A program made the position numbers and the translations under genes. From an uncultured Pseudomonadota bacterium (GTDB lineage: Bacteria; Pseudomonadota; Gammaproteobacteria; Steroidobacterales; Steroidobacteraceae): a DNA stretch of 64,000 nt. Location: contig CAIYLH010000113.1 of the NCBI GenBank assembly GCA_903927005.1, positions 1 through 64,000 of the forward strand, given 5' to 3'. This document shows, in pieces, positions 14,118-43,504 of this stretch (positions are counted from its first letter, which is position 1; each line of letters starts with the position of its first letter). The notes under the pieces were generated by a model. It had not been told where the DNA came from and did not search any database. It worked only from the letters and a program-made list of their open reading frames with translations.

Positions 14118-14603
14118 ATGCGTCATCATAATTCCGGCCGGCAGCTGTCGCGTAACAGCTCGCACCGCCACGCACTGATGCGGAACCTGTCGGCGGCTCT
14201 GCTGCAGTACGAGACCATCCGCACCACCGTTCCCAAGGCGAAGGAGCTGCGTCGGGTCGTCGAGCCAATCATCACGCTCGCCAAGACCGATAGCATGGCT
14301 GCCCGCCGTCGCGCGTTCGCGTTCTTGCGTAACGAGGCGCTCGTCGAGAAGCTGTTCACGGATCTCGGTCCGCGCTTTGCGACTCGCGCTGGTGGCTACA
14401 CCCGCATCCTTAAGATGGAGCCGCGTGCTGGCGACTCGGCGCCGATGGCGCTGATGCAGCTCACGGAGAAGCCAGTGGTAGCGACTGCTGCTGCCGAGCC
14501 GATTGCTGCAGGCAAGCCGAAGCGCGCCAAGAAGGCGCCGGCGGCTGATGGCGAGGCGGCTCCGGCCGCTAAGAAGCCCCGCGCCAAGAAGGCGGCTGCC
14601 TGA
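14118..14603 (+). CDS. rplQ: 50S ribosomal protein L17 with long basic Ala/Lys/Pro tail
   Basis: 161 aa. Residues 1-120 match L17 ([43 protein letters not shown]). About 40 further residues form a low-complexity tail with repeated [12 protein letters not shown] and KKPRAKK. Such tails occur in some gammaproteobacteria and resemble the repeats in the RsfS extension of this window. Last gene of the ribosomal super-operon. Confidence 0.97.
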
Positions 14604-16342: not shown

Positions 16343-16543
16343 ATGAACGTGAAAATCGCCTTTGGCGCCATTGCGCTGGCGCTGGCCCTCGCTGCTTGCG
16401 GTGGTAACAAGGAAGCTGCTCCGGCCGCCCCTGCTGCCGACGCTGCTCCTGCTGCTGCTGCTGCTCCTGCTGCCGACGCTGCCGCGCCGGCTGCTGACGC
16501 TGCTGCTCCGGCTGCTGCCCCGGCGGAAGCGCCGAAGCCGTAA
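16343..16543 (+). CDS. Small Ala/Pro-rich putative lipoprotein
   Basis: 66 aa. Residues 1-18 form a short signal peptide ending in a lipobox (LALAAC, Cys19 followed by Gly-Gly), so the protein should be lipid-anchored; residues 20-66 are almost only Ala, Pro, Asp and Glu in AAPAADAA-like repeats (GCTGCT-rich DNA). Glycine after the cysteine argues against Lol avoidance, favouring the outer membrane. No known function; the tail looks like a flexible spacer. Bounded by its own terminator, so it is probably monocistronic and well expressed. Confidence 0.7.
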   Translation: MNVKIAFGAIALALALAACGGNKEAAPAAPAADAAPAAAAAPAADAAAPAADAAAPAAAPAEAPKP

Positions 16544-41747: not shown

Positions 41748-42446
41748 ATGTCGACGACGCTACTTAGCGCGACCTGCCCGGCCAGTGCCGTGAGCGGTCC
41801 GATGGGTATCTTCGGGGGTACCTTCGACCCCATTCACTACGGCCACCTCAGGACCGCCTACGAGCTGCTCGCCACCCTGCGACTGCCCGAGATGCGGTTC
41901 ATGCCGGCCGGCAACCCGCCGCACCGCCCCGCGACGATCGCCAGCAACGAGCTGCGCCTGCAGATGGTCCGGGCAGCTACCGCCGGCCAGAGCGGGTTCA
42001 CGGTTGACGACCGCGAGATGCGCAAGCAGGGCCCGTCCTACAGCGTTGAGACGCTGGCCGAGCTGCGCGCCGAGGCGCCGACGCGGCCGCTGTGCCTGAT
42101 TGTCGGCATGGATGCGTTTCTGGGCCTGCCAAAGTGGCATCGCTGGCGCGACCTGCTGACGCTCGCCCATCTGGTGGTCGCCCACCGACCGGGCTGGCGG
42201 GCGCCGTTAATGGGTCCGCTGGGCGAACTGCTCGTAGAGCACGGCACGGGCAGTGTCTGCGACCTGCACGAGGCCCTTGCCGGGCGTATTTACATCCATG
42301 CTGTGACACAGCTGGAAATCTCGTCGACCGATGTCCGGGCGCTGATTGGCGCCGGCGGCGACCCACGCTACCTCATGCCAGAGGCCGTGCGGAGTATCAT
42401 CCTAGAATCGGGCTGTTATGCCCGGAAGGAAGTAGGAAGGGGATGA
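41748..42446 (+). CDS. nadD: Nicotinate-nucleotide adenylyltransferase
   Basis: 232 aa. Nucleotidyltransferase motif GIFGGTFDPIHYGHL and C-terminal EISSTDVR (ISSTxxR signature). Forms deamido-NAD from nicotinate mononucleotide. ATG 41748 adds about 18 residues before GIFGGTFD; a later start at 41802 is possible. Overlaps rsfS by 4 nt. Confidence 0.94.
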   Translation: MSTTLLSATCPASAVSGPMGIFGGTFDPIHYGHLRTAYELLATLRLPEMRFMPAGNPPHRPATIASNELRLQMVRAATAGQSGFTVDDREMRKQGPSYSVETLAELRAEAPTRPLCLIVGMDAFLGLPKWHRWRDLLTLAHLVVAHRPGWRAPLMGPLGELLVEHGTGSVCDLHEALAGRIYIHAVTQLEISSTDVRALIGAGGDPRYLMPEAVRSIILESGCYARKEVGRG

Positions 42447-43015
42447 CCGTCAAGACTGTAGCCAAGAAGCCCGCCCGCAAGACCGCTCGCCCCGCCGCCA
42501 AGGCGCCGGCGCGCGCCAAGCCCGCGGCAAAGAAGACCCCCAAGGCCGCGCCGGCAAAGCGCGCCGCCCCTAAAAAGGCCGCTGTGCCCAAAAAGGCCGT
42601 CGCCCCTAAAAAGGTCGTCGCGCCCAAAAAGGCCGTTGCGCCCAAGAAGGCGGTAGCGCCGAAAAAGACCGAACACAGCGCACTGACGCAGATCGTCGCG
42701 GCGGCGCTGGACGACATGAAGGCGCAGCACGTCATGGTGTTCGACGTGCGCGGCGTCACTGACGTCACCGACACGATCGTGATCGCTTCGGGCACGTCTG
42801 ACCGGCACGTGAAGTCGCTCGCCAGCAGCGTCGTCCACAAGGCGCGCGAGGCGGGCTACCGCACGCTGGGCGTCGAAGGCGAGCGTGAGGGCGAGTGGGT
42901 GCTGGTCGACCTGCACGATGTCATCGTGCACGTCATGCTGCCGCGCATCCGTGAGTTCTACGCGCTGGAAAAGCTCTGGGACGTGCGTTCGGCCGACCGC
43001 GGCGACGCGGTCTGA
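42443..43015 (+). CDS. rsfS: Ribosomal silencing factor RsfS with histone-H1-like N-terminal extension
   Basis: 190 aa, against about 105 in E. coli. Residues 77-190 are the complete RsfS domain (ALTQIVAAALDDMKAQHVMV; GTSDRHVKSLAS; VLVDLHDVIVHVMLPRIREF), which binds L14 and blocks subunit joining on starvation. Residues 1-76 are Lys/Ala/Pro only, ending in six APKKAV-like hexapeptides. AGGAAGGGG RBS, ATG overlapping the nadD stop: the extension is translated unless an internal start is used. Confidence 0.92.
   Translation: MTVKTVAKKPARKTARPAAKAPARAKPAAKKTPKAAPAKRAAPKKAAVPKKAVAPKKVVAPKKAVAPKKAVAPKKTEHSALTQIVAAALDDMKAQHVMVFDVRGVTDVTDTIVIASGTSDRHVKSLASSVVHKAREAGYRTLGVEGEREGEWVLVDLHDVIVHVMLPRIREFYALEKLWDVRSADRGDAV
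42563..42667 (+). repeat. Imperfect 18-bp tandem repeat in rsfS
   Basis: About six units coding (V/A)APKK(A/V), with repeated GCCCAAAAAGGCCGTTG-like sequence. Similar to AlgP/AlgR3 and histone H1-like tails. Such repeats can vary in copy number by slippage. Confidence 0.8.
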
Positions 43016-43033: not shown

Positions 43034-43504
43034 ATGCGCGTGCGCCTCGTCGCCGCGGGTACCCGCCTGCCGGAGTGGATTAACGCCGGCTACACCGAGT
43101 ACGCGCGGCGCATGCCACCGGAGTCGCCGCTCGAGCTGGTCGAGATCGCGGTCCCGCGAGGAACCGCGCAGGGCGCGCGCGAGCGCGCCACGCGCCAGGA
43201 AGGCGAGCGCATGCTCGCCCAACTCACCGCGCGCCAGTGGGTGGTCGGGCTGGACGTCACCGGCCGGACGCTGGACACCGCCGGGCTGTCCCGCTGGTGG
43301 GCCGGCCGGCAGCGCGATGGCCGGGATCTGGCGTTCCTGATCGGGGGGCCTGACGGTCTGGCAGCCGATGTGCTGGCGCGGACCGACGAGCGGCTGTCGC
43401 TGTCCGCCTTGACGCTGCCGCATGGTTTGGTGCGCGTGCTCCTCGCCGAGCAGCTATATCGGGCCGTCAGCCTGCTCAAGGGCCATCCCTACCACCGCGA
43501 ATAA
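43034..43504 (+). CDS. rlmH: 23S rRNA pseudouridine-1915 N3-methyltransferase
   Basis: 156 aa, standard. SPOUT methyltransferase with the trefoil-knot region FLIGGPDGLAADVL and C-terminal RVLLAEQLYRAVSLLKGHPYH. Methylates the pseudouridine in helix 69 of assembled 70S ribosomes. Follows rsfS as in E. coli. Confidence 0.95.
   Translation: MRVRLVAAGTRLPEWINAGYTEYARRMPPESPLELVEIAVPRGTAQGARERATRQEGERMLAQLTARQWVVGLDVTGRTLDTAGLSRWWAGRQRDGRDLAFLIGGPDGLAADVLARTDERLSLSALTLPHGLVRVLLAEQLYRAVSLLKGHPYHRE

Follow-up and report, generated by a model that had tools for sequence, protein, structure and literature searches.

The gene of the ribosome silencing factor RsfS, in a 64,000-nucleotide stretch of an uncultured Steroidobacteraceae bacterium (contig CAIYLH010000113.1, positions 1 to 64,000 of the forward strand; assembly GCA_903927005.1), hereafter the window, encodes an ordinary RsfS core behind an N-terminal tail rich in lysine, alanine and proline (K/A/P). 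A survey of related genomes revealed that a basic tail on RsfS is a trait of the whole family Steroidobacteraceae, and that the APKK repeats found here are one species' version of it. Retention of the tail for its charge and its few acidic residues, rather than for its sequence, is the best explanation of what varies and what is kept among the family members.

Identity of the rsfS product and its N-terminal tail

The assignment of the product to RsfS, already made in a first-pass annotation of the DNA, is confirmed by matches to TIGR00090 (residues 82-179; 119.2 bits against a cut-off of 56.9) and PF02410 (110.1 bits against a cut-off of 21.6, E 6.5e-32). RsfS models alone passed a curated cut-off, and the domain architecture of AlgP/PhaF is not found in the protein. 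W152, D156 and R170 are invariant in 46 aligned RsfS sequences and keep the spacing of W77, D81 and R95 of Escherichia coli, reported as the most conserved RsfS residues (PMC3400551). In the AlphaFold2 model, block means of the predicted local distance difference test (pLDDT) are 88-97 over residues 81-180, and a Foldseek search with this model returned the solved RsfS structures 2id1 (E 2.2e-12), 9ss4 and 6sj6. With 190 residues, the protein is long in comparison with RsfS in 36 readable genomes from other families of the order (110-143 residues), length being typical of the family and not a defining criterion.

The 76 additional N-terminal residues and their histone-H1-like make-up, both described in the first-pass annotation, were recovered by codon count. 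Residues 1-76 consist of K22 A24 P12 V8 T5 R4 M1 without aspartate or glutamate and carry a net charge of +26, and 58 of the 76 are K, A or P, giving the repeated, K/A/P-rich composition of an H1-like tail. Six hexapeptides, as annotated, make up the last 36 residues of the tail, although APKK is present in only five of them and VPKK in the remaining one. Tandem Repeats Finder delimited an 18-bp array at 42572-42671 (5.6 copies, 79% matches) together with a 54-bp period. The G+C content (GC) of the tail (0.675) is close to that of the core (0.673), and shuffling of the bases gave a charge of 9.5 +/- 4.6, with none of 300 shuffles as high as the observed +25 (counted for the tail plus four core residues, with Met left out). 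The AlphaFold2 model presents the tail as a coil without secondary structure, with pLDDT block means of 57-67 over residues 1-80, suggesting that it is disordered.

The tail is very probably translated from 42443, as first proposed, on the comparative evidence of a shared gene overlap, open reading frames and constrained first codons. The ATG of rsfS (42443-42445) overlaps the TGA of the upstream gene nadD (42444-42446), and this overlap of -4 is common to 13 of the 15 genomes of the genus. Each of the 59 family members read has an uninterrupted frame that runs from a start codon across the tail into the core; the frame-disrupting changes that the first-pass annotation had named as evidence against the extension were therefore not encountered, out-of-frame remains in short-tailed members not having been looked for. 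An internal start near residue 76, which would leave the extension wholly untranslated, is highly improbable: the core does begin near residue 80, and a GTG at codon 48 is preceded, five bases upstream, by a weak ribosome-binding-like AAGG, but this GTG is the sole other start-like codon before the core, no further in-frame ATG occurring upstream of it, and initiation at the GTG would still leave 29 residues of the tail with the greater part of the array. An internal start also has against it the open frames, the nadD overlap and, in six of eight pairs, the constraint at the beginning of the tail.

Distribution and conservation of the tail

A search of 98 genomes, including the one under study, gave 96 matches to RsfS. 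The family sample comprised 60 Steroidobacteraceae genomes, of which 59 (25 genera) were matched and read, and the outgroup sample 38 genomes drawn from 15 further families in the order, with 37 matched and 36 readable. G039 and G093 (no match) and G086 (unreadable) stand outside the counts, and G007 is cut by a contig end at its C side. Tail charge was taken as the sum of the N-terminal and C-terminal tail charges, N tails being counted without core residues. This charge is at least +6 in 57 of the 59 Steroidobacteraceae genomes, the other two, both of genus g19, having +5 and +3, and it is at most +3 in all 36 outgroup genomes. Presence of the tail in the family ancestor, or an early gain within the family, is the best explanation. 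GC content was considered as the cause of the tails and ruled out, since no comparable tail occurs at any of the 21 non-family loci (of 36) whose GC is at least 0.60, and six family members with a GC of 0.52-0.59 bear tails of +19 to +24 and a seventh, G042, one of +20, read from a non-ATG start.

Length, repeat unit and sequence all vary within the family. The length survey suggested with the first-pass annotation gave N tails of 11-145 residues, and the expectation that repeat number can change held as well, the repeats being in frame and the APKK array being missing from the nearest species read, G005. Of the 62 family tails that span 60 bases or more, 26 contain a tandem array, and in 24 of these the period is a multiple of three. 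In one member of genus g18 (G031, locus L025), the N tail of about 145 residues is mostly made up of a 57-bp unit in 4.2 copies at a 91% match, probably a recent expansion. Over 2863 N-terminal residues of the family (four core residues per row included), aspartate and glutamate account for 1.3% and lysine and arginine for 30%. As for the sequence of the tail start, the ratio of nonsynonymous to synonymous substitution (dN/dS) over the first 19 codons after the ATG is about 0.19-0.24 among the closest three species, against 0.08-0.22 for the core, and in three other pairs it is 0.04-0.12 over 13 codons.

The end of attachment also varies. A tree of NadD plus the RsfS core was built with 65 rows, namely the 59 family members and six of the 36 outgroups. 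One group (19 rows, support 85/81) includes 18 with an N tail under +10; in nine of its rows, from genera g8, g10, g13, g15 and g22, the basic tail is found at the C end instead, with a charge of +9 to +23. The N and C charges of genus means are correlated at -0.63 (p 0.0008, 25 genera, no correction for descent); in the tree and the correlation, charges of N tails include four core residues, some C ends were missed and G042 was misread. An exchange of N for C tails is suggestive, not proven, from these comparisons.

Basic tails were also encountered outside the family. In a class-wide sample of 281 genomes (269 matched), 69 genomes outside the earlier set were read, 30 as the best-scoring and 39 others selected mainly for long open frames; for part of these, the start was set at the closest ATG that follows a ribosome-binding-like site, so that N tails with an internal ATG could escape. 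RsfS of family f102 carries C tails of +12 to +20 in six of six genomes (L202, L268, L269, L270, L271, L272), and in family f79, where 18 of the 20 genomes searched had a match, 11 of these 18 have milder C tails of +5 to +10. Hence, basic tails were probably gained by RsfS more than once, as far as these sequences indicate. In a phylum sample of 150 genomes (146 matched), no K/A/P tail was present among the 30 best-scoring loci, the only ones read, a result with little bearing on the rest.

Related tails and possible roles

Similar tails were sought by composition in 1.35 Mb of the same genome (33.7%, window included). Under a strict K/A/P test, four proteins were recovered, RsfS, DksA, DNA topoisomerase I (TopA) and RNase R, all of them nucleic-acid or ribosome machinery. 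A laxer threshold added three weaker frames, of which, by eye, one resembles a DNA-binding regulator and one an inorganic pyrophosphatase; therefore, the restriction of such tails to nucleic-acid machinery may not be strict. Use of the RsfS tail as a sequence query against the same genome was insensitive and missed the DksA tail found by composition. As a separate observation, ribosomal protein bL17 (window 14118-14603, 161 residues) has a K/A/P-rich C-terminal extension with some acidic residues.

RsfS and polycationic tails are each known, and their combination was not found in the literature searched. The core domain, the conserved residues and the nadD-rlmH placement are common to RsfS (YbeB/Iojap) in general, but bacterial RsfS chains in a PDB sequence search have 105-152 residues, against 190 here with a 76-residue polycationic tail. 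Chain G of PDB 28ye (ribosome silencing factor S, 152 residues) has, as here, a basic stretch rich in A/K/P/R on the N-terminal side of the core, but a shorter one of about 35 residues and without a hexapeptide array; no publication on this entry was found. Among the open-access papers returned by the literature searches, no title or abstract opening concerned a basic RsfS tail, nor was any paper found on a lysine-rich N-terminal extension of DksA, and a word search for 'extension' in two RsfS papers (PMC7125091 and PMC3400551) gave zero occurrences.

Among other proteins, the K-rich C-terminal domain of RNase R is, like the RsfS tail, disordered and lysine-rich on a ribosome-associated protein, and in E. 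coli it is reported to be required for enrichment on stalled ribosomes (PMC3949413); it differs in belonging to another enzyme, in lying at the C terminus and in having an acidic residue, E740, that matters. The KPAA-repeat domain of AlgP/PhaF resembles the RsfS tail in K/A/P composition, tandem repeats and disorder, and AlgP with its KPAA tail is described as localising to polyphosphate granules, such peptides also binding DNA (PMC9239181). However, AlgP has its repeats, which are tetrapeptides, on a different and helical domain, in contrast to the hexapeptides of RsfS, and composition alone is in common. The lysine repeats of topoisomerase I, which are said to confer processivity (PMC7398561), are H1-like as in the RsfS tail, but are C-terminal and act on DNA.

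The reading favoured here, at about even chances, is that the tail is a translated and probably disordered polycation that would act as an electrostatic tether of RsfS, non-specific for sequence, to the phosphates of 50S ribosomal RNA (rRNA). The core would dock on uL14 as in other RsfS proteins, and the length of the tail would let it span a large part of the adjacent 50S surface and bind rRNA phosphates there. Such binding may raise the capture rate and the residence time of RsfS on the 50S subunit, both the rRNA partner and the effect on residence being taken by analogy, and a longer residence would tighten subunit anti-association when ribosomes idle. In Staphylococcus aureus, the RsfS site is reported to adjoin 23S rRNA helix 95 and bL19 (PMC7125091). 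A flexible polycation at either end could add affinity for the subunit surface without a defined contact, which would fit the tolerance for end, length and sequence of the tail. Also counted for this tether were the charge shared across the family, the rarity of acidic residues, the opposed N and C charges, the constrained first codons of the closest three species, the array periods divisible by three, and the basic tails on f102 RsfS, at the C end, and on RNase R of the same genome.

Several results weigh against this view. The tails of some members are small (G051 +3, G032 +5, G025 and G055 +6, G015 +7), G051 merely tying the outgroup maximum, and in outgroup G091 an N stretch of 28 residues reaches +5, offset by an acidic C end. 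Among the 41 tails with 30 or more residues, charge is only modestly above that of base shuffles, z having a median of 2.8 and a minimum of 1.1. For two of the eight pairs, dN/dS at the start of the tail is about 0.8-0.9, close to free evolution, so that sequence constraint there is not uniform among pairs. Only four independent pairs on well-supported branches bear on the N-for-C exchange, with one or two opposite, none the same way and the rest without difference, which is not significant. Finally, the present evidence, consisting of sequence and model, does not distinguish rRNA from DNA or polyphosphate as the partner.

The tail could instead bind polyphosphate, or the nucleoid, when cells starve, parking RsfS and DksA there and coupling silencing to starvation. 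This is a real alternative of low probability. In its favour, polyphosphate is reported to bind E. coli RNase R in its lysine-rich region (PMC12345225), and in the genome under study DksA, TopA and RNase R also bear like tails. Against it, RsfS and DksA each have 0 occurrences in the main text of the same polyphosphate screen paper (PMC12345225), and the two tails do not go together, as the N-terminal extension of DksA, measured from the farthest ATG, is at least +32 in 16 of 20 outgroup genomes whose RsfS is without a comparable tail.

The absence of any particular function, the tail being a low-complexity run grown by replication slippage in GC-rich DNA and tolerated because it overlaps nothing essential, is likewise a real alternative of low probability. 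Very variable length and repeats, little conserved sequence, the GC-rich family genomes (median locus GC 0.686, against 0.623 in other families), the nearly free evolution in two of eight pairs and the small tails of g19 would agree with it. On the other hand, GC-rich outgroup loci lack a comparable tail and low-GC family members have one, acidic residues are nearly absent, and several genera recover the charge at the opposite end, with C tails in f102 too.

A broader proposal, put forward as doubtful, is that RsfS of Steroidobacteraceae may be a polyanion-gated silencer, in which a charge-selected disordered tail at either end would sense the balance of free rRNA, idle 50S and polyphosphate and so set when and where silencing occurs; with the tails of DksA, RNase R and TopA, it would make up an electrostatic layer common to the growth-arrest machinery of these cells. 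More improbable is a fold-back of the tail on the acidic uL14-binding face, keeping RsfS off ribosomes until a polyanion (rRNA or polyphosphate) draws the tail away. The uL14-facing side of RsfS is described as negative overall and the uL14 helices as positive (PMC7125091), from which we infer that a lysine tail could compete in cis, but the modelled tail is a coil without secondary structure and masking would have to survive a change of end.

Whether it acts as a tether or otherwise, the tail is of wider interest, as RsfS is widespread and fairly uniform in size among the relatives read. With its N-terminal and C-terminal versions and N tails of such different lengths, the family offers a ready natural experiment for asking if a hibernation factor can be tuned by nothing but the charge of a tail. 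These observations suggest, moreover, that histone-like bacterial tails may be common to a small set of ribosome and nucleic-acid proteins, beyond AlgP or topoisomerase.

Feature coordinates and a further observation

Table 1. Features of the rsfS locus (window positions) and of tailed proteins elsewhere in the same genome (locus positions).
Feature	Position	Strand	Basis or remark
rsfS coding sequence	42443..43015	+	190 aa plus stop; PF02410 E 6.5e-32, TIGR00090 119.2 bits
K/A/P-rich tail at the N terminus (76 residues, none acidic; predicted to be unstructured)	42443..42670	+	codon count; AlphaFold2
Six imperfect 18-bp units	42563..42670	+	coding AAPKKA AVPKKA VAPKKV VAPKKA VAPKKA VAPKKT
RsfS core domain, residues 80-180	42680..42982	+	family models, AlphaFold2, Foldseek
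Purine-rich leader, likely ribosome-binding site	42427..42442	+	aggaagtaggaagggg; ATGA overlap of rsfS start with nadD stop
nadD, overlapping gene upstream of rsfS	41748..42446	+	NF000839 232 bits
rlmH, 23S rRNA methyltransferase gene downstream of rsfS	43034..43504	+	NF000986 184 bits
DksA, KPAA-rich N-terminal tail of ~150 residues	L307:9230-10129 (contig C110)		
DNA topoisomerase I (TopA), K/A/P-rich C-terminal tail	L315:12558-15161	-	
RNase R, K/A/P-rich C-terminal tail	L329:13453-15996	-	
Inorganic pyrophosphatase-like frame (by eye), short basic C tail	L313:5437-6063	+	laxest threshold only

Elsewhere in the window, at 16415-16524, dense overlapping tandem repeats of 9-21 bp and CTG type were noted, over which a plus-strand frame of 95 residues, leucine-rich and of low complexity, is open and perhaps no gene.
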